A DNA stretch of 51,459 nucleotides from an uncultured Bacilli bacterium (GTDB lineage Bacteria > Bacillota_I > Bacilli_A > RF39 > UBA660), in the NCBI GenBank assembly GCA_944329425.1, contig CALVIG010000003.1, positions 1-51,459 of the forward strand. The letters are read 5' to 3'. Shown here one piece after another: positions 166 through 27,062 of this stretch. The stretch's first letter is position 1. Each line of letters starts with the position of its first letter. Both the position numbers and the translations under genes were made by a program. Under the pieces are notes generated by a model that worked only from the letters and a program-made list of their open reading frames with translations, ran no database searches and was not told the DNA's origin.

Positions 166-627
166 ATGAAAAATTATGAAATTAATAGAGAAACATTAGC
201 AATTATACCTTGTGGAAAAGGTAAATCTAAGATAATTGAAGAAAATAATGAATTTTATGTTAATTACTCAACAACTAAAATAATTGATTATAGTTGTAAA
301 TTTTTTGGTAGCTCATATGAGGGGAGGTTTAATGGTACTAAAAGTATATTAGGAGTTTCCCACAAGTCACCAATTATAATAGAAGAGAGTAATAAAATTA
401 TTTTTTTTCCTACGACCTCACCAAGATTAGAATGTTGTGCATGGATTGCATTAAATAACATAAGTAAATATTATAAAAGTGGTATCGATACTATAATAGA
501 GTTTAACTGTGGAAAAATAATTAAATTAGAATTATCATATGGTATTGTTGATAATCAAGTTTTAAGAGCAACAAGGTTAAGTGCATTAATAAATAAAAGA
601 ATGAATGAATTAATAAAAAGTATATAA
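166..627 (+). CDS. comK: ComK family competence transcription factor (short form)
   Basis: In Bacillus, ComK is the master activator of competence, binding AT-rich boxes in front of DNA-uptake genes. The 153-residue product shows ComK family signatures in order: YEINRETLAIIP near the N terminus, SKIIEENNEFYVN, IIDYSCKFFGSSYEGR in the middle, VSHKSPIIIEESNKIIFFPT, then LSYGIVDNQVLRATRL near the C terminus. Bacillus ComK is about 192 residues; this protein stops where the C-terminal extension carrying the MecA-recognition motif would begin, so it should lack that proteolytic control (inference). The start is set by GGAGG at 154-158. It has its own upstream terminator, TTGACA element and downstream terminator, so it is a single-gene unit. 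Its place directly before recF, where dnaN/yaaA usually sit, is unusual. Family assignment is firm; a role in competence here is inferred. Confidence 0.85.
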   Translation: MKNYEINRETLAIIPCGKGKSKIIEENNEFYVNYSTTKIIDYSCKFFGSSYEGRFNGTKSILGVSHKSPIIIEESNKIIFFPTTSPRLECCAWIALNNISKYYKSGIDTIIEFNCGKIIKLELSYGIVDNQVLRATRLSALINKRMNELIKSI

Positions 628-775: not shown

Positions 776-1862
776 TAATTTTAGAAATATTTCTAAATTA
801 TCCCTTAATTTTGAAAAAAATATAAATATTTTTGTTGGAAATAACGCCCAGGGAAAAACCAACATTCTTGAAAGTATTTATTTTCTAGCGATAACCAAAT
901 CACATAGAACCCATAATGAACTTCATTTAATAAAAAATGGAGAATTATATACTAAAGTATCGGGTTTATTTATTGATGATCTAAAAAATAATAGATTATT
1001 ATCAATATTATTAAACGAACGAGGTAAAAAAGTATCAGTAGATAATATTACTCAAAAAAAAATTAGTAATTATCTTTCAAGGTTTAACGTTATTATGTTT
1101 TGTCCAGATGATTTAGAAATTATAAAAGGTTCACCTAACGTTAGAAGAAAATTTTTAAATATAGAGCTTTCTCAATATAATAAAAATTATGTTTCTTTAT
1201 TAAAAGAATATAATCAAATATTAAAGCAAAGAAACGAATATTTAAAACAAAAAAACAATGCGAGGTTTGATAAAACATATTTTGATATAATAACTGAAAA
1301 ACTTATTGATAAAAACGTTGAAATTATAACGTTGAGGTATGATTTTATTGATAAAATAAACCAGTTTTTGCACGTTGTATTTAATGACATTACCAATTTT
1401 GGTAAATTAACGATTTTATATAAAAGTTTTATTAATCAAGAAAATCTAAAAAAAACAAATATAAAAGAAATTTTAATGTCTAGATATAATTCTTTGTTTA
1501 CGAATGAATTACTACAAAAAACGACACTTTTAGGTTGTCATAAAGATGATTTTAAAATGTATTTAAATGATTTGGATGTAACTGAATTTTGTTCACAAGG
1601 GCAGCAAAGATTAGCTATATTATGTTTAAAATTAGCTGAAATAGAAGTATTTATTAAGGAAAAGCATACTAAACCCGTAATTTTACTTGATGATATTTTT
1701 AGTGAACTTGATGAGGTTAAGAAAAATAACATAATAAAATATTTCAAAGATGATGTTCAAATATTTATTACTACTACAGATATAAAAGAAATAAAAAAAG
1801 AATTAAAAGAAAAAGCTGATATTTATATTGTCAATAATGGAATTATAACGAAGGAGGAATAA
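750..1862 (+). CDS. recF: DNA replication and repair protein RecF
   Basis: RecF is an SMC-like ATPase that loads RecA with RecO and RecR at single-strand gaps. The 370-residue protein has the N-terminal [14 protein letters not shown] strand, Walker A GNNAQGKT at residues 30-37, the ABC-type signature region FCSQGQQR near residue 278, and Walker [14 protein letters not shown] near residues 308-320. Length is normal for the family. The only in-frame start is ATG 750, which lacks a ribosome-binding site and lies inside a short leader ORF. The end of the gene contains the AAGGAGG that serves gyrB, two bases downstream. Order recF-gyrB-gyrA is as in Bacillus; RecR is also encoded in this window. 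Confidence 0.97.
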
Positions 1863-1864
1863 TT

Positions 1865-3793
1865 ATGAAAGAAAATCAAGAACATTATGATGCCTCTGAT
1901 ATACAAGTATTAGAAGGATTAGAAGCAGTAAGAAAAAGACCTGGTATGTATATTGGTACTACTGATGTAAAAGGATTACATCATTTAGTATGGGAAATAG
2001 TTGATAATTCAATAGATGAAGCTTTAGCAGGTTATTGTAATAACATAGAAATAGTTATTAATAAAGACAATTCTATTACCGTTAAGGATGATGGTCGTGG
2101 TATTCCGGTTGATATTCATCCAAAAACAAAGATTTCTACCGTTGAAACCGTTTATACGGTATTACATGCTGGTGGTAAATTTGGAGGAGGAGGATACAAG
2201 GTATCTGGTGGCCTTCATGGTGTTGGAGCATCAGTTGTTAATGCATTATCTAAGTGGGTTGAAGTAACTGTTTATAAAAATGGAAACATATACAAAATTA
2301 GGTTTGAAAATGGAGGACATACTATTAGGCCACTTGAAATAATAGGAAAATGTGAAGAAAAAAGGACAGGTACATGGGTAACTTTTAAACCAGATCCTGA
2401 TATTTTTGATACTGATATTTATGATTACGAAACTTTAAAAGTTAGGGTAAGAGAACTTGCGTTTTTAAATAAAGGATTGCGTATTACTTTAAGAGATGAT
2501 AGGGACGAAGAAGATACTACTGGTGAAACTTTTCTTTATGAAGGTGGAATTAGAGAATACGTAAAATTTATTAATCAAGGAAAAACTCCTATTCATGATG
2601 ATATTATTCATTTAGAAGGTATCGAAGATAACGTATTTTTTGAAGTTGCGTTACAATACAATACTGGTTATAATGACAATATATATTCTTTTGTTAATAA
2701 TATTAATACCCATGATGGTGGAACACATGAAGAGGGTGTTAGAAGAGCATTAACGAGGGTTATTAATAGTTATGCAAGAAAAACTAATATTTTAAAAGAA
2801 AAAGATGAATCTTTAACGGGTGATGATGTTAAAGAAGGTTTAACGATGATTATATCTTGCAAGCATCCTAATCCTCAGTTTGAAGGGCAAACAAAAGGAA
2901 GACTAGGAAATTCAGAAGTAAGAAAGCTAGCTGATAAAGTCTTTTCTGAAGGTTTTGAAAAATTCTTACTTGAAAACCCAGAAGAAGCTAAAATAATAGT
3001 TAATAAAGCAATGCTTGCATCAAGAGCTCGTAATGCCGCAAAAAAAGCAAGGGAAATAACTCGTAAAAGTGATTTAGCAACAACCAATTTCTTTGGGAAA
3101 TTATCAGATTGTAAGAGTAAAGACCCAAAAGTGTCTGAAATCTTTATAGTCGAGGGTGATTCAGCAGGTGGAAGTGCTAAAAAAGGTAGAGATTCAATGA
3201 CTCAAGCTATTTTACCTTTAAGAGGTAAGATATTAAACGTAGAAAAAGCAAGGTTAGATAAGGCTTTAGGAAATGAAGAAATAAGAACCATTATTACTGC
3301 TTTTGGAACTGGTATAGGAGAAGAATTCAATCTTAGTAAGCTAAGGTATGATAAAATAATAATAATGACCGATGCCGATGTTGATGGTTCTCACATAAGG
3401 GTATTATTATTAACTTTATTTTATAGGTTCTTTAAACCTATCGTAGAAGCAGGACACGTTTATGCAGCACAGCCTCCACTATTTAGGATAATGCATGGTA
3501 AAACCCGTAAATACGTGCTAAATGACGAAGAAAAAGAAGCTTATTTGGCGTCTTTACCAGAAAATGTTCGTCAAAGAGCAGAAATAGCGCGTATGAAAGG
3601 TCTTGGTGAAATGGATGCCGAGGAGTTAAATGAAACAACAATGGACATTGAAAAAAGAACGTTAAGAAAAATAACCGTAGAAGATTGCGTGGTAGCGGAT
3701 GCTATGTTTAACAAACTTATGGGTGAAGAAGTAGAACCTAGAAGAGAGTTTATTGAAAAAAATGCACAATATGTTAAGAATTTGGATATTTAG
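1865..3793 (+). CDS. gyrB: DNA gyrase subunit B
   Basis: ATPase subunit of the type IIA topoisomerase that introduces negative supercoils. The 642-residue product has a GHKL ATPase domain ([37 protein letters not shown]), a transducer domain, and a TOPRIM domain with EGDSAGG starting at Glu430 and the metal-binding DADVDGSH at residues 503-510. The C-terminal [15 protein letters not shown] block is the conserved GyrA-contact region. Length is typical of Gram-positive GyrB. The ribosome-binding site lies in the tail of recF. Three bases separate its stop from the GTG overlapped by the gyrA ribosome-binding site, so the two subunits are co-transcribed. Confidence 0.98.
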
Positions 3794-17703: not shown

Positions 17704-18282
17704 GTGAAACATTTTAATAGAAAAATTAAAAATGCTTTACTCATTTTATTCATATGTTTAATAGCATTTATCGGTTTTTCAAAATCGGGAATATTGTTTT
17801 CTAGTAGTGGGAAAGATATTATAACTGTTTCTACCACGAAGAAGACGTTTGATCCGAATAATTATGTTGCGTCGGTTGCTGCAATAACAACAACTACAAC
17901 CACCACAACAACTACGACCACGACTACGACAACTTCTACAGTTAAATCTGTTGTTTCGAATTATAGTTGGTCAGGAGAGGTTTTGACAAAAAGTAAAGGT
18001 GTTGTAACGGGGCCGTCGGGTAAAGAAACTTATTACAATTTGGATATGACCAAGGTAGTTAGAGCTATGAGAAATGCTGGATATACAGAAGCTGAATATC
18101 CATATTGGATTAGAGAAGATGGCGTTAAAATGCTTGGACAGTACGTCATAGTTGCCGCAAATTACGAAATAAGGCCTAAGGGTACTATAATAGAAAGTTC
18201 TTTAGGAATGGCGATAGTTTGTGATACGGGTGGTTTTGCAAAGAAAAATCCTACTCAAATAGATATAGCGGTTACTTGGTAA
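17704..18282 (+). CDS. Membrane-anchored 3D-domain protein (YabE-like)
   Basis: The 192-residue protein has a basic N terminus and one membrane segment or signal anchor (about residues 12-28), an extracellular linker with 16 consecutive threonines (62-77) written in mixed ACA/ACC/ACG/ACT codons, and a C-terminal domain ending GMAIVCDTGGFAKKNPTQIDIAVTW. That ending, with PKGT before it, matches the double-psi barrel 3D domain (three conserved Asp) of YabE/Rpf-like and MltA-like cell-wall hydrolases. YabE holds this position between yabD and ksgA in Bacillus; here the G5 and DUF348 repeats are missing. GTG 17704 follows GAGGTG (17692-17697). Muralytic function is inferred. The Thr tract could span the wall and be glycosylated. 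Confidence 0.72.
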   Translation: MKHFNRKIKNALLILFICLIAFIGFSKSGILFSSSGKDIITVSTTKKTFDPNNYVASVAAITTTTTTTTTTTTTTTTSTVKSVVSNYSWSGEVLTKSKGVVTGPSGKETYYNLDMTKVVRAMRNAGYTEAEYPYWIREDGVKMLGQYVIVAANYEIRPKGTIIESSLGMAIVCDTGGFAKKNPTQIDIAVTW

Positions 18283-20182: not shown

Positions 20183-20198
20183 TATATGAACTTTTTTT
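20173..20198 (+). terminator. Intrinsic terminator of veg
   Basis: Perfect 8-bp stem (20173-20180 with 20186-20193), 5-base loop, T run to 20198; the veg stop codon is inside the hairpin. Confidence 0.75.
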
Positions 20199-20208
20199 AT
20201 TGTGATTA

Positions 20209-20237
20209 TTGCTTTTTGCTCGTATTTATGATTAAAT
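20209..20237 (+). promoter_or_regulatory. Candidate promoter for the surface-protein operon
   Basis: TTGCTT (20209-20214) and TTAAAT (20232-20237) are 17 bases apart, and TG one base before the -10 helps a weak box. TATATT at 20245-20250 is an alternative -10 without a good partner. Confidence 0.4.
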
Positions 20238-20269
20238 TAAAGTGTATATTAAAATGGAGGAACTATACT

Positions 20270-23200
20270 ATGAACATGACTAAAACGGATTTTAAAAAAA
20301 GACTAAAAGATTGGTTTATTATTCAGAGAATAAGATTACTTAATTTTATGAAAGAACATAAATACATTTCTGCGTTTATTGGTGTTTTTTTAATGTCATG
20401 CGTAGTTGCTCTTGTGGTTTATGCATCAAATAATGATGAATATAATGGAAAAGTCAATGTATCTGCAAGTGTTGTTCAAAAAAGTGTATCATCTAATGAT
20501 GAAATAAAAAGCATAAAAAGTTTTAGTACGCTTGTTTATGATTTGTCTTATTCATTAAGCATCTCAGATTTACCGCAAGATGAAACCGAAGTAAGAGATG
20601 AGGTTATAATTGAAGCATCGTTTGATGCCAGTATAGATGCGGATTGGTTTGTTGCGGATCAAGAAGCTAACTATGATATATCGGAAAAAGATGGCAAAAA
20701 AATTCTAACCGTTACCATGTACCAAATAAGGGTAGGAGATACGATTAATAAACAATTATACCTAAAGGTTAAAAACATCCCTAACAATAAAGAGATTACA
20801 ACTAATTTTAAAATAAAAGAAGGTACTAGTGATTCTTTTAAAGACCTTGGAACCAAAACCGTTACTATTGAAAGCCAAAAAGTAGATTTAACGGCTAAGA
20901 TAGTGCCTGGATCAGCGTATAAATCAGACGATTATTCTGGGGGTAGGTATGCTCCTTTTGGAATAATAGTTGGTTTTGATAAATCTAGTTACCAAAGCAT
21001 GGAAGGACTTTACTTTGATGAAAATTTGGAATTAGTTTTGGAACCAATTCAAGAAGTAAATGGTGTCGTTTCTCAAATAGAATTAGAAAACAGTAATTCA
21101 AAGTATTTTGGTTTGTACGATAGAAGTAGTAATCTATTAAATGCTATGCCACATTATAAACAAGATTTTAGTCAATACTCTGTTTATAATTCTGGTACGG
21201 TTGAATCTTTAAATAAGTCTTTAGCAGGTGTTTCTGGAGTTGTTTCAGAGAATAAAAATCCAGACTTATACTTAATTGGAGATAAGGAAATAAGTTTAGA
21301 AGTTGGTGATACTTATACCGAATACGGTGTGGCTACAAAAGAAAATGGTTCGGCAACGTGTAAGAATAGCGATAGTTCTTGCAAAAGGATTATAAAAGAT
21401 GAATCTGGTTCTGAAATAAAAGAGACTGAAATTACTAGCAAAGAAGGAACGTATACTGTTAGTTATGAATATTTCACCCAAACAGGTTCTACTACTATTT
21501 TTAGGACCGTTAAAGTAAGCGCTAAAACGACAAAAGAAGTAAATGGTAATGTTTATGCTCTAAGAGGAAATAATAACATGACTATTTTAAAGGGCAGTGG
21601 GGTTTCTTATAAAGAATTAGGAATTAGTAAAAACGGGAAAATTTTACTAAATTATGATAGTGTAATTACTTATAATGATGAACCTGTTACTGACGTAGAT
21701 GAAAGCAAGGTAGGAGAATATAAGATAACGTATACAATAACTGATGATTCTAAAGAAGAATTACCAGAAGGGGGAACTGAAGAGCCAACAGAAGATGAAA
21801 ATTCTGATGAAACCGGTAATACGGATAACACATTTACTTTAATAAGGACAGTTAAGGTGGTAGATGCTAAATATACTAAAGCCCAAACCCTTAACGCAAA
21901 AACAATATACGCTCCGTCTGACGGTTCATTTAAAACTCCGATAGTATATTTAGATGATGAGGAAGTAGAATGCACAAGTAAAAATAATTGTTCAGTAAAA
22001 TATTATAATCCTACTACTGAAGAGGAAACTAGTATAAACAATAATGTTGCTGGAACTTACGTTGCAAAATATGAAATAAAAGATAAAAATGGTTTTGTAT
22101 TGAGGTCAACAAACACGGTTAATATTCAAACAAAATATAGTTTGGTGATAAAAGGAATAAAATCAGATGGTTCAATGACTCTGTATGGAGATAATTTTAT
22201 TGCACTTGGGTCATACTTTGTTACTGCAAAATCAAATCGTGAAGAAGGAATAACTTCAGACATAATTGTTAAGTTAAAAATAGGTAATGTTATATCTGAC
22301 AGTGTAATTAATGAAAATTATTCTAAGGGTATTAAAGAAAATAAACTAACGTTTAATACTGATACTGATGGCTCTCTTACCGAATTATCTAATTCTGACT
22401 TCTTGGCGTATGGTGAAGAAGCAATCTTAAGGTCAACGTTTAGTTATTCAAGTGATGGTGATGATAACATAAAAACGTTAACTACTACCGTTCCAATTGG
22501 TTTAGCTACAACGACAGCTTTCAATCCAACAGCACCATTTTATATGCTTGAGTATGGTGATGCTCAAAGTGCAGAGCCTTATTACATAAACGAAGAAGTT
22601 AAAGATAAATTAACTGAGGTTAAGTATTATGCGTGTGAAATGGACGAATCGAAAGCAGAATGTAATGAAGGAACAGAAAGGGTTTATGATTCTTTTGCTA
22701 CTTTATCTGATGATTTAAATAAAAATACGAAATTAAAATTAGCATATTTAACTTATACTTTAGAGGATATAAAACCTGGTACTAAAGTTGATTTCAGGGT
22801 TAGAGTAGGAACGAACGTTGGAAATCACGCAGGAGAAGTTAAACTTACATCGACCTCAACTTTTGAAGAAAAACAGGAAAATGGTCAGTATGAGACAAAA
22901 ACTATAACAAATACAAATAATGCTTCTGTTAATGTTACCGCGTTTAAAGCAAGAACAAAATTATTTGTTGATGGAAGTGAACAAGATATCATAATAAATG
23001 GTGCAAACACAAATAAATCAATTTGGTCTATATATCCTACGGTAACTTTACCAGCTGAAAAAGTTAACACTAATGTCGCTGGTATCCATGAACTTTCAGA
23101 AATTAGGATTACGGTAACTTTACCAGAGGGATTAAATTATGTATATAATGAAAACTATGATATTCCAACCGTAAACGGAAAAACTTTAACTTATGTTTTA

Positions 23201-24808
23201 AAAGGAAAGCAAATCAATGAATGGATTGATCCTACATACTTTGAAACAAGTTATGATATAAATATTCCTTCAGGAACGGAAAAAGAGGTAAGTGTTTTAA
23301 TACAAGCAACATCAACAACTGAAATCCAGGATGCCTCAACGGCTAGCTTAAGAACCACAACTAGAAAAATAACGTATCAAAATAACGAAATAATATCACA
23401 CGGTTTATACACTAAGAATACTGCGATTTCAAAAGAAACAAGCTTTGATGTAAATACCAAATTATATAATAATAGCAAAACCGATAAACAAAATCTAGAA
23501 ATTGTTACATTACTTCCTTATAATGACGTAAGTAACGAAGATTCTTATACGGGTTCTTATACAATTTCTAATTTACCGGCGGGAGCTTTATGTAGTACCA
23601 ATTTACCAACGTTAATTGCTGATAATGACAAATTAGTTTCTGACCAAGAGATTTCTTGGGAAGATTGTTCTAAGTATGAATCGGATGGTTATTTGGGAGT
23701 AACCGCAATAAAAGTAAACGGTATAAATTTAAAGAGTGGTCAAATTTATGATCAAAGTATTATTATTACGCCAACTGCTAACAAAACGGGAGACGTTTAT
23801 AACGTTAATTCATACTTAATAATGCCAGTTACTACTGAAGGTGCGTCAAAAAAACAAGTTATTAATTCGAAAAAATTAAAAGTTGAAGTAATTAGTAAGC
23901 AGATAACTGGAACGGTTTGGGAAGACTTTGATTCAAATGGTATTATGGATAATAGCGAAAAGAAAGTGTCTGGTGTAACTTTAAAATTATATGATGCATC
24001 AACTGATGAACTTATAAAAACAACAACGTCTGATGAGAAAGGCAAGTACAGTTTAACTGATTTAGAACCAGGAACTTATTATGTAGTAGCTGAATATAAC
24101 ACCGCAAAGTATGGTATATCTCCTTATCAAGTTACTCTTGATAAGTCAGTTACTTCATCATTTACTACTTTTGATGATAAGACGGAAGAAGACGATAAAG
24201 AAACAAAAGAAGTTGATGAAACTGAAGAAAATGAAGAAGAAAACGCCGAGGAACCAATAAGCGTAATTAGGACCGAAAACATAGAAATAACCGACAATAC
24301 TAGGACGGTTAGAAACATTAACTTAGGATTGGCACTAAGAAAAGTCTATACGGTAAAATTAAGAAAATATGTTACGCGAGCTATAACAACCAATAATTTA
24401 GGTGTTTCAACAATAAAAGAATATGGTAATGCAACTTTAGCTAAATTAGATGTAAAAGATATTAGTAATTTAAGTATAAAAGTTGTGTATACAATAGAAT
24501 TAGAAAATACAGGATATTATCCAGGTTACATATATGCTGTTAAAGATTATGTTCCAGATGGTATGGAGTTTAATCCTGATTATGAAGAAAACGCCGGTTG
24601 GGTGATGACTGATTATGGTTATTTAGAAAACGATTCTTTATTTGATGAATTAGTACAAGCTGGTGAGAAAAAGTATCTTACGGTTGCGTTTGATATTGTA
24701 AGAAAAGAAGCAGGTTCTTTTGTAAATTATGCTGAAGTAGAAGATGATGATTTACAAATCTTAGTTGTAGGTGGAAGTAAGAGCGAAGAAGGTGATAATA
24801 ATGAGTAA
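20270..24808 (+). CDS. Large membrane-anchored surface protein with Ig-like, SdrD_B and DUF11-like domains
   Basis: A 1512-residue extracellular protein. ATG 20270 is chosen for its TGGAGG site (20255-20260); an upstream extension would be unrelated. Residues 1-31 are basic and cytoplasmic, 33-54 form one membrane helix, and the rest is outside. Three DUF5011/Ig-like modules follow (about 328-417, 427-530 and 535-625; VGDTYTEYGV, GTYTVSYE, VGEYKITYTITD and RTVKV motifs), then long beta-rich repeats, an SdrD_B/Cna_B-type domain from about 1212 (GTVWEDFDSNGIMDNSEK, GKYSLTDLEPGTYYVVAEY), an acidic spacer (about 1305-1330) and a DUF11-like domain (ENTGYYPGYIYAVKDYVPDGM). There is no LPXTG. Cysteines come in close pairs. 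The ORF ends inside the next gene (8-base overlap), so both are coupled. A role in adhesion is inferred. Confidence 0.85.
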   Translation: MNMTKTDFKKRLKDWFIIQRIRLLNFMKEHKYISAFIGVFLMSCVVALVVYASNNDEYNGKVNVSASVVQKSVSSNDEIKSIKSFSTLVYDLSYSLSISDLPQDETEVRDEVIIEASFDASIDADWFVADQEANYDISEKDGKKILTVTMYQIRVGDTINKQLYLKVKNIPNNKEITTNFKIKEGTSDSFKDLGTKTVTIESQKVDLTAKIVPGSAYKSDDYSGGRYAPFGIIVGFDKSSYQSMEGLYFDENLELVLEPIQEVNGVVSQIELENSNSKYFGLYDRSSNLLNAMPHYKQDFSQYSVYNSGTVESLNKSLAGVSGVVSENKNPDLYLIGDKEISLEVGDTYTEYGVATKENGSATCKNSDSSCKRIIKDESGSEIKETEITSKEGTYTVSYEYFTQTGSTTIFRTVKVSAKTTKEVNGNVYALRGNNNMTILKGSGVSYKELGISKNGKILLNYDSVITYNDEPVTDVDESKVGEYKITYTITDDSKEELPEGGTEEPTEDENSDETGNTDNTFTLIRTVKVVDAKYTKAQTLNAKTIYAPSDGSFKTPIVYLDDEEVECTSKNNCSVKYYNPTTEEETSINNNVAGTYVAKYEIKDKNGFVLRSTNTVNIQTKYSLVIKGIKSDGSMTLYGDNFIALGSYFVTAKSNREEGITSDIIVKLKIGNVISDSVINENYSKGIKENKLTFNTDTDGSLTELSNSDFLAYGEEAILRSTFSYSSDGDDNIKTLTTTVPIGLATTTAFNPTAPFYMLEYGDAQSAEPYYINEEVKDKLTEVKYYACEMDESKAECNEGTERVYDSFATLSDDLNKNTKLKLAYLTYTLEDIKPGTKVDFRVRVGTNVGNHAGEVKLTSTSTFEEKQENGQYETKTITNTNNASVNVTAFKARTKLFVDGSEQDIIINGANTNKSIWSIYPTVTLPAEKVNTNVAGIHELSEIRITVTLPEGLNYVYNENYDIPTVNGKTLTYVLKGKQINEWIDPTYFETSYDINIPSGTEKEVSVLIQATSTTEIQDASTASLRTTTRKITYQNNEIISHGLYTKNTAISKETSFDVNTKLYNNSKTDKQNLEIVTLLPYNDVSNEDSYTGSYTISNLPAGALCSTNLPTLIADNDKLVSDQEISWEDCSKYESDGYLGVTAIKVNGINLKSGQIYDQSIIITPTANKTGDVYNVNSYLIMPVTTEGASKKQVINSKKLKVEVISKQITGTVWEDFDSNGIMDNSEKKVSGVTLKLYDASTDELIKTTTSDEKGKYSLTDLEPGTYYVVAEYNTAKYGISPYQVTLDKSVTSSFTTFDDKTEEDDKETKEVDETEENEEENAEEPISVIRTENIEITDNTRTVRNINLGLALRKVYTVKLRKYVTRAITTNNLGVSTIKEYGNATLAKLDVKDISNLSIKVVYTIELENTGYYPGYIYAVKDYVPDGMEFNPDYEENAGWVMTDYGYLENDSLFDELVQAGEKKYLTVAFDIVRKEAGSFVNYAEVEDDDLQILVVGGSKSEEGDNNE

Positions 24809-27062
24809 TAAATTAATAAAAAATTTAAGCTTAATTTTCGTAATGTTAATAACCTTCTTTGGTTTTACTAATAATGTCTTAGGTGCTGAAAAAGTTAGAA
24901 CTAGAGCAATTTATCCAAAACCTTACAACGAAATTTACTTTACCATGAATAAAATAAAAAATGGTTCAACAGGAACTCATACTTTGAATACCGGAATTTA
25001 TACAATTAACGGAAGGCATGCTTATTGTATAGAACCAGGAGTTGAGATAAAAGGAACTAGTGGATATATATCAAGCAATGGTAAATCATTAAGTTCATAT
25101 ACCGGTGGTTACTTTACTAAAGACACTGGAAGTTGGCAGTTCGTGGCAAATGATACTGGTACTGATAACGATAGAAGAAAGTTAATATCATATATTTTAA
25201 CATTTGCACAAAACGAGGGTAACATTGCTGAAGGTACTTATAATAATCCTAACTGGTCAAATATTGCAAAAGATATAGCAAAAAGATATCAAACAAGTAA
25301 ATTAAGTAACACGTATAAAATATTTGCGGCTCAAGGGATGATTTGGGAAGTTGTTGTAGGAGAAAGAAAAAGTTTTAACCACGAATGGCCAGAGTATGGT
25401 CCTACTTGTAGCTTTTATAACGTTATAAATGGTAAAAATAATTGTAATAAAGCTAATACAACTGATATAAAAAACGAATATAATCGAATTGTAAGTGCAA
25501 TACAAAATTCTTTTTATAAAGCGCCTGGAGAATCAAGTGGTGGAAAAATATTTAAACCAGGTGGTTCTGAAAACGTTGTACCTTTATCTTGGGATGCTAC
25601 TAAGAAAAAATACACTCTAACAATTTATGATACTAATTTTAAATATTGGGAAGTTATTAAGTCAACAAATGCAACTTCTGCGGGATTAGAAGTTTCAATC
25701 GGCTCAAATTATATAACAATTTCAAGTAGTGACCCTATTAGTCAAGATGCTGCAAAACGTGTTGGAATTAAAATATATAATAAGAATAATAATGATTCAA
25801 CGGTTTACATCGATAGTAATTTGCAAGACGTGGTTGTTCTTGGTGGCGCAACCAGGGAATTATACATAAAAGTATATACTCCTAAATATCAAATTAAGAT
25901 AAATAAAAAAGCAGAATTAGATGGCAAAACATTAAGTGGCGCAAAGTTTAATGTGTGTACTAATAGTTCATGTACCAACGTATTAGGTACCATAACAACG
26001 GGTAGTGATGGTACGGCTGTATATAAAAATATTCCGTCACCTGGAACATATTATGTAAAAGAAATAGAAGCTCCGGACGGATATGAATTAGATCCTACTC
26101 CGCATGCAGTAACTGTTACTTCGTCAAATGTTGCTGGTTCAACTAGTTATGGTTCAATTAATATTAGTGATAAAAACAAAGAATTTAATTTGACAAAATT
26201 GTCTGTGGACGAAGATGGTAATTCCGTAATTTTGGATGATGGTTGTGGTACCGATAATTATACGGGCCCAGAATTTGAAATCAAAGAAAATGGTAATAGT
26301 TTGTATTTCAAGGAATTAAGTCCTGGTGTATATGATTATGCAAGTAAAGAAACTGAAGGTGCGGTAACAAAGTTAAAAACATGTAAAGGTAAACTTAAAG
26401 TTTATACTTTGCCAAATTGTAGTTATACAATTACCGAAACTAAAGCCCCAGAAGGTCTTACTTTACCTTCAAATCCAACTAAAACAATTAACGTATGTGG
26501 TTCCGACAAAAACGTTTCTTTTACCAATGGATTTGCTGGACTTGAATTTCAAAAGAAGGATGAAGATGGAAACTTCATATCTGGAGGTAAATTCTCTTTA
26601 CAAAAGAAAGAAAATAACGTTTATAAAGACGTTTTATTGAAAGAAGTAGGAGAAGGTTCTTACGTTTATGACACAAATTTAAAAGAAACTGATGAAGGTG
26701 CAACATACATAATAACTACTACTGATGGTGAACCGGAAGGTGAGCAAAAAGGAATAGCTAGAATTACTAATCTTCCTCCTGGAGAATATAGAATTTCCGA
26801 AAAGGAAGCTCCAGAAGATTTTGAACTTATAGAAGATAAAGATTCTAAAGCTCTAGTAACCATAAAAGATAGTGATAAAGGTGATTATTATTTAGTTGAA
26901 ATGATCGACCAAAAAATTAATAAAAATGGTAGTGAAGCATCAGCTGAATTAGTTGTAACCATCACTACTGGTAGAAACGTTCCAAACTACGTTTTGATTA
27001 TTTCCGTATTATCAGTATTATTAATAATAGCGATAATATTAAGAAAAAGAATAAAAAAATAG
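24801..27062 (+). CDS. Thioester-domain and Cna_B-domain surface adhesin
   Basis: The 753-residue protein has a signal peptide (cleavage likely after LGA, residue 29), then a thioester (TQXA-like) domain: Cys76 in AYCIEPG and Gln178 in AAQGMIWEV are the residues expected to form the internal Cys-Gln thioester that lets such adhesins bond covalently to host amines. Three Cna_B/SpaA domains follow (about 360-450, 460-578 and 581-705), each with a YVKEIEAPDGY, YTITETKAPEGL or YRISEKEAPEDF motif carrying the isopeptide Glu. A membrane helix (about 729-747) and the tail RKRIKK end the protein, without a canonical LPXTG. ATG 24801 follows GGTGAT (24791-24796) and overlaps the upstream gene by 8 bases. 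Thioester and isopeptide bonds are inferred from the motifs. Confidence 0.86.
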   Translation: MSNKLIKNLSLIFVMLITFFGFTNNVLGAEKVRTRAIYPKPYNEIYFTMNKIKNGSTGTHTLNTGIYTINGRHAYCIEPGVEIKGTSGYISSNGKSLSSYTGGYFTKDTGSWQFVANDTGTDNDRRKLISYILTFAQNEGNIAEGTYNNPNWSNIAKDIAKRYQTSKLSNTYKIFAAQGMIWEVVVGERKSFNHEWPEYGPTCSFYNVINGKNNCNKANTTDIKNEYNRIVSAIQNSFYKAPGESSGGKIFKPGGSENVVPLSWDATKKKYTLTIYDTNFKYWEVIKSTNATSAGLEVSIGSNYITISSSDPISQDAAKRVGIKIYNKNNNDSTVYIDSNLQDVVVLGGATRELYIKVYTPKYQIKINKKAELDGKTLSGAKFNVCTNSSCTNVLGTITTGSDGTAVYKNIPSPGTYYVKEIEAPDGYELDPTPHAVTVTSSNVAGSTSYGSINISDKNKEFNLTKLSVDEDGNSVILDDGCGTDNYTGPEFEIKENGNSLYFKELSPGVYDYASKETEGAVTKLKTCKGKLKVYTLPNCSYTITETKAPEGLTLPSNPTKTINVCGSDKNVSFTNGFAGLEFQKKDEDGNFISGGKFSLQKKENNVYKDVLLKEVGEGSYVYDTNLKETDEGATYIITTTDGEPEGEQKGIARITNLPPGEYRISEKEAPEDFELIEDKDSKALVTIKDSDKGDYYLVEMIDQKINKNGSEASAELVVTITTGRNVPNYVLIISVLSVLLIIAIILRKRIKK

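Follow-up and report, generated by a model that had tools for sequence, protein, structure and literature searches.

A core-only ComK encoded in the replication cluster of an uncultured Bacilli family, with Spo0A-type boxes before its gene

The published degron of Bacillus subtilis ComK starts with the residues FMLYPK (PMC8138137), and in the same organism Spo0A~P is reported to bind the comK promoter directly (PMC3297582). A B. subtilis ComK shortened by 25 C-terminal residues is described as keeping its DNA binding and losing activation of comG, and the tail-less ComK2 of Bacillus cereus as reducing comG expression (PMC3128618, PMC3536758). ComK2 of Staphylococcus aureus, which has no counterpart of the extra C-terminal helix of ComK1, is reported to be able to repress transformation genes (PMC12491500). 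The core of the Spo0A box (0A box) is given as TGTCGAA, with TTCGACA as its reverse complement (PMC3485338). For the order RF39, to which the bacterium studied here belongs, sporulation in a different manner has been predicted (PMC10868615), so that the retention of Spo0A described below is not surprising; among the matches listed, no literature connected RF39 with competence or ComK, and none concerned the family UBA660.

The window analysed here (the whole stretch of 51,459 nucleotides) carries a comK gene near its beginning, with the following features:

166-627, + strand: comK, encoding a core-only ComK of 153 amino acids (PF06338, alignment A1, AlphaFold2 model)
151-159, + strand: ribosome-binding sequence AAAGGAGGG, read from the sequence
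750-1862, + strand: recF, the next gene

The gene starts with ATG, and the ribosome-binding sequence lies directly 5' of it. Its product matches the Pfam ComK family (PF06338) with an E-value of 1.2e-42 and 145.7 bits (cut-off 22.3) over residues 2-146, aligned to profile positions 2-151 of 152, and this whole-domain match bears out the preliminary description of the protein as a ComK homologue. The three core motifs named there (KFFGSSYEGR, SHKSPII and DNQVLRA) are all present, and recF does adjoin the gene as stated. No other Pfam family and no NCBIfam model matched the product at E ≤ 1, and a profile search gave a single ComK match across the 1.11 Mb genome.

The protein extends 24 residues beyond its NQ motif and has no LYP, and thus it stops before the MecA-recognition tail, as had been noticed at first sight. 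The same end is found in its relatives, with 16-31 residues after NQ in 95 of the 96 aligned ComK rows of the family and class, which are not de-duplicated (several genomes stand in two collections, and the window's own gene is counted twice, as P0001 and L001). These rows were drawn from at most 30 listed places per large search and go back to 97 loci with ComK, from which copies cut by contig ends were excluded and to which P0001 was added. The one exception, L130, has a Lys-rich end of 46 residues after NQ, and LYP is absent from all 96 copies. From NQ to the end, the tailed references, taken from plasmid and phage records, have 50 residues (S. aureus), 62 (Listeria) or 64 (S. pseudintermedius; this one is a phage record, and its junction could have contributed residues); a Priestia plasmid ComK is likewise short, with 21 residues. 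Other families of the class supplied 19 further loci, one of which repeats the gene of L158, with a ComK of 130-170 amino acids. Alignment A1 of 24 family members contains 31 invariant columns, and the longer versions that would have spoken for a truncated copy were absent from the aligned relatives. Within the family, 220 of 243 genomes have a ComK, or 161 of 172 when good genomes alone are counted, and in the class 165 of 395 do; its presence is hence less unexpected than had been supposed for an apparently reduced lineage. By sequence comparison, then, ComK is normally short in this family and likewise in the other sampled families of the class.

The AlphaFold2 model of the protein (pLDDT 91.9, pTM 0.87) closes with a helix at residues 125-152, and as modelled the ComK domain is complete without the tail. 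The best Foldseek match of this model was a LytTR domain (E 3e-3). In the VIA comparison the six best rows were all LytTR domains, headed by B. cereus 3d6w (Z 8.4), with Z-scores of 7.8-8.4, which lie at the edge of the range where chance arrangements occur; the next unrelated row had 5.1. No LytTR sequence profile was detected in ComK, the Pfam scan at E ≤ 1 giving ComK alone, and no solved structure of a relative was found by sequence at E ≤ 1. Since one family fills the first six places, a LytTR-like fold is probable for the model despite the edge-level Z-scores, and it would assign ComK to an already known class of DNA-binding fold.

The uptake genes that a ComK might regulate are widely retained, with ComEC in 58 and a T2SSE ATPase in 60 of 61 family genomes. 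The genome of the window contains:

L100, 2215-4940: comEA-comEC, read and Pfam-checked
L098, 6319-7620, - strand: comG-like ATPase gene, read and Pfam-checked

The comG-like set also includes a T2SSF protein, an A24 peptidase and a protein with an N-methylation motif, and a Tad-like locus was recognised by reading on L099. Of the ten good genomes in the set that have no ComK, eight keep ComEC, which indicates that the link between ComK and the uptake genes is not a strict one; loss of ComK does not at once remove the uptake machinery. Paired AAAA-N5-TTTT boxes (K-boxes), counted at spacings of 8, 18 and 31 and five others in this AT-rich DNA, showed no clear enrichment in 33 comEA and 39 comGA upstreams compared with shuffled sequences and 177 controls; a slight excess of pairs was seen at comK upstreams. 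Of the partners initially proposed as worth looking for, comEA-comEC, comG-like and ClpC-like genes are present, K-boxes gave no clear signal and MecA was not found.

In 28 of 39 genomes, comGA and the gene diverging from it are separated by a conserved, palindromic divergent promoter of about 50 bp with a common TATTATATAATA core and CTAAA arms (L098 7621-7759 on C7 of the window's genome). It was considered as a ComK site and rejected, being absent at comEA and comK. Genomes with a divergent ComK (G045, G088, G212, G097) are without it. The comEA leaders form hairpins with varying arms that bury the ribosome-binding sequence (L174, L175, L170, L111, L162); their folding z-scores averaged -2.17 over 33 leaders, the 177 controls averaging -0.58, and the ribosome-binding sequence was paired in 16 of 22 leaders against 24 of 66 controls.

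Since short Bacillus forms of ComK fail at comG, activation by a short ComK is not to be presumed, and the earlier assumption of a working activator is not supported by the B. subtilis and B. cereus precedents, in which short ComK fails at comG or lowers its expression. By analogy, the protein may be a repressor, or it may activate in some other way. We favour ComK as a regulator of the uptake genes, of either sign. A narrower alternative, which we regard as possible if doubtful, is that the short ComK represses or tunes genes like the tail-less ComK2 proteins of B. cereus and S. aureus and activates no com genes at all. The reported loss of comG activation on C-terminal truncation in B. subtilis (PMC3128618, PMC3536758), the reported repression of transformation genes by S. 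aureus ComK2 (PMC12491500) and the failure to find K-boxes at com promoters would fit such a role, but every listed genome with a match has a sole ComK, except G074 and G100 (two matches each), and a single copy generally has no longer ComK beside it to oppose. The retention of ComK in 220 of 243 genomes likewise argues against it.

MecA is missing together with the tail that it reads. The Pfam model stayed below its cut-off throughout the 61 family genomes, the sole match being a weak one (G144, E 5e-4); it found nothing in 70 ComK-carrying genomes of other families and nothing in the window's own genome, which is 95.8% complete; the same model detected both positive controls, B. subtilis and Lactococcus. 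The listed rows of the phylum-wide draw all belong to the same class, and the joint lack of tail and MecA thus refers to these sampled genomes, Bacillales not being among them. A short ComK had been expected to escape the main post-translational brake, an expectation that falls away with MecA, since there is no MecA brake to escape. Taken together, the short form and the lack of detectable MecA indicate that MecA/ClpCP proteolysis is not part of this system. This points to the MecA degron as something added (or jointly lost) along with MecA itself and as no element of the basic design of ComK.

A ClpC-like gene (Clp_N) was identified in 29 of 31 genomes. The copy in the window's own genome is as follows:

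L216 (C4), 835-3093: ClpC-like gene, 752 amino acids; Clp_N repeat present twice, AAA lid (Pfam)

By reading, its AAA lid holds a UVR-like stretch. The second Walker A motif is degenerate (GKKNSGKK), and judged from this motif the second nucleotide site is possibly unable to bind or split ATP. Retention of this gene is compatible with another route of proteolysis, directly by ClpC or through arginine-phosphate tagging, which would still limit ComK. We hold this idea only tentatively, given the degenerate motif of the window's copy and the failure to find an adaptor, MecA being the sole adaptor sought.

In the window, recF is followed by gyrB and then gyrA (names by reading; recF was confirmed when it served as a query). 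The gene is the neighbour of comK in 47 of the 52 loci in which a downstream gene is visible, out of 56 loci that were not de-duplicated. The upstream gene is dnaN in relatives (372-378 amino acids, Pfam-checked in L033), where it follows dnaA; dnaN is not visible here because the contig itself begins where the window does. The family order dnaN-comK-recF-gyrB-gyrA is that of a replication cluster. Within it, comK is flanked by two hairpins:

67-96, + strand: terminator-like hairpin between the upstream gene (dnaN in relatives) and comK, -9.9 kcal/mol, z -2.45
615-644, + strand: terminator-like hairpin over the comK stop codon, before recF, -8.1 kcal/mol, z -3.42

Of the related loci tested, 20 of 22 have a terminator-like hairpin before comK, following dnaN, and 21 of 21 have one after comK, compared with 18 of 94 control windows inside genes; a generic terminator scan, which demands three G-C pairs, reported neither of the hairpins in the window. 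With hairpins on both sides, comK is probably its own transcription unit inside the replication cluster. Outside the family, the usual place of comK is between pgk and a gene for an MsmX-like ABC ATPase, or next to ridA and rmuC (names by reading, RmuC alone being Pfam-checked), as in the class members L145, L150 and L154. The rmuC neighbourhood, as read from gene order, suggests a link to DNA metabolism. Elsewhere in the window are two large predicted surface proteins of 1540 and 763 amino acids (20186-27062), the second ending in a membrane anchor, and a secreted-type protein of 192 amino acids with a long threonine run (17704-18282).

The words most enriched in 76 comK upstreams of the family over controls contain TCGACA. 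These upstreams were de-duplicated by sequence, and 54 of them with a genus code represent 44 genera. Of 51 exact 0A boxes in the 76 loci, 43 fall within the 150 bp before comK, which make up 3.6% of the bases, corresponding to 3.77 boxes per kb against 0.026 elsewhere in the same loci. An exact box stands at comK in 32 loci and is lacking in 44; none of 60 shuffled motifs occurred in more than 6 loci. P-values for the boxes ignore kinship, and the spread of exact boxes over 22 of the 44 coded genera is the better guide. A matrix built from 15 boxes of spo0A promoters, and hence independent of comK, scored at least 9 in 67% of the 76 comK upstreams, 4% of 208 controls, 6% of comEA upstreams, 8% of comGA upstreams and 4% of shuffled comK upstreams. 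The two-box scores of comK and controls differed with p 2e-34 (Mann-Whitney), in a comparison in which the two sets come from different genomes and relatives are not independent. Pairs of boxes with scores of at least 5 are spaced at comK by 10 bp (29 cases), 20 bp (20) or other distances (6), and no such pair was found in the control upstreams. The boxes lie mostly 60-100 bp before the start codon in a fixed orientation, and a typical comK promoter has a single strong box with weaker phased neighbours.

The pattern TTYGACA-N3-TTYGACA matched in 33 of 61 genomes, whereas its reversed form gave two matches in all. Several of these tandem matches precede spo0A, and none of those compared by coordinates lay at comK; such pairs do stand at comK in L027, L130, L131, L133 and L135. 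Genome G097 has 17 tandem boxes in 1.3 Mb, against 0-6 in the other searched genomes, which reflects either a much enlarged Spo0A regulon or a box-bearing repeat family.

The protein that would read these boxes is retained. Spo0A_C was detected in 58 of 61 genomes, including that of the window (E 3.4e-41), where both the recognition region SRVERAIRHAIEVSWNRG and the box in the spo0A promoter are intact; spo0A promoters of the family carry a TTCGACA/TGTCGAA box. In 20 Spo0A proteins that were read, the recognition region is kept except in G005, G036 and G059, and those of G045, G058 and G129 show a few changes in it. The three exceptions (L288-L290) have degenerate recognition or receiver regions; the box is lost from the comK upstream of G005 (L118), and two ATCGACA at 10 bp are kept in that of G036 (L122). 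Outside the family, a box was found in 2 of 30 comK upstreams (two of the 30 being the same gene), and the wiring therefore appears, from these promoter sequences, to be a family trait.

Spo0A acts on B. subtilis replication at oriC. The boxes might thus serve chromosome replication and stand before comK by chance, an idea favoured by the position of comK next to dnaA-dnaN and by 0A-like boxes that also precede dnaA in some loci. Regulation of B. subtilis DNA replication by Spo0A is also stated in passing in PMC3485338. We consider this explanation improbable, since the box stays with comK where the gene has moved: among four genomes with comK away from recF, three (G026, G130, G146; not G072) have a box of at least 9 at comK, and none has one just before recF, which has itself left dnaN. 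That the boxes keep one orientation, stand at a similar distance from the start codon and are phased by 10 bp also speaks against it. A local truncation or pseudogene, which the short product compared with Bacillales ComK might bring to mind, was rejected as hardly credible, since the same end is common to the family, the frame is open, 31 columns of A1 are invariant and the model is good.

The promoter of the window's own gene departs from the family pattern and contains the following elements:

102-108, + strand: TTTGACA, a 0A box with one mismatch to the consensus TTCGACA, also -35-like, matrix score 8.5
125-133, - strand: TGTGGATAA, reverse complement of the DnaA box TTATCCACA; overlaps GATAAT
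129-134: -10-like GATAAT

This promoter has no exact 0A box. The score of TTTGACA lies under the value of 9 used for strong boxes and is reached by 12 of 208 controls, whereas the two-box score of the promoter was matched by no control upstream. TGTGGATAA is shared by 8 of the 76 comK upstreams and by no control among 177; six of the eight upstreams lack an exact 0A box. Read against TGTCGAA, TTTGACA carries the G5A change, which puts its one mismatch on a contacted base, and such a change is reported to have lowered the affinity of Clostridioides difficile Spo0A about tenfold (PMC3485338). In the close relatives L034, L035 and L056 no box of at least 5 was found at comK. With the 0A box degraded to TTTGACA and a DnaA box over the -10 element, the control of comK may, to judge from the promoter sequence, have shifted in the genus of the window. 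The box pattern thus argues well for predicted Spo0A control of comK in the family, and weakly for the window's own gene.

We propose that the gene encodes a functional core-only ComK, free of MecA control and expressed from its own unit, with a promoter targeted by Spo0A and with the uptake genes under its regulation, a joint reading that we judge rather probable. ComK would bind DNA as a transcription factor of LytTR-like fold that closes with a C-terminal helix and carries no degron tail. From the enrichment and phasing of the boxes and the retention of Spo0A and the uptake genes, we infer that Spo0A most likely acts directly on the comK promoter through 0A boxes phased by 10 or 20 bp, that Spo0A~P would switch on (or gate) comK when growth slows, and that ComK would then regulate the kept DNA-uptake genes, comEA-comEC and the comG-type pilus. 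Spo0A is accordingly a candidate for a direct regulatory input to competence in a large uncultured gut lineage with uptake genes. A bolder idea, which we think rather unlikely, is that a core-only LytTR-type ComK encoded at the origin, between dnaN and recF, is switched by Spo0A through phased 0A boxes, with DnaA added in the window's own genus through the box over the -10 element, and that transcriptional control by these regulators of starvation and replication replaces proteolytic control. If true, the origin would be the place where competence is coupled to growth and to the state of the chromosome, and the LytTR-type ComK would be a distant cousin of the ComE and AgrA regulators.

Compared with known systems, the protein belongs to the same Pfam family as B. 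subtilis ComK and matches the whole profile, but it is without the degron tail, is encoded between dnaN and recF in the family order, and comes from a genome in which MecA was not found; K-boxes were not recognised at the com promoters here. The short form is shared with ComK2 of B. cereus and S. aureus, described as being without the C-terminal region or helix (PMC3128618, PMC3536758, PMC12491500). In those species, however, it is a second copy beside a longer ComK1, whereas the present genome has a single copy. In its model, ComK resembles the LytTR domains of pneumococcal ComE (4cbv, Z 8.2, 102 residues, 3.0 Å) and AgrA (3bs1, Z 8.2, 88 residues, 2.7 Å) and differs from them in having no sequence match, no receiver domain and an extra C-terminal helix. 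The new element is the Spo0A-comK link in this family, for which the direct action of Spo0A~P on B. subtilis comK is the reported precedent (PMC3297582). Five sites, A1-A3 and R1-R2, are described for the B. subtilis promoter (PMC3297582), whereas the boxes of the family are phased by 10 or 20 bp. The family shares the TGTCGAA (TTCGACA) core with the 0A regulons of Bacillus and Clostridioides, also in its own spo0A promoters, and differs from them in that comK, with its phased boxes, is a predicted target in an uncultured lineage.
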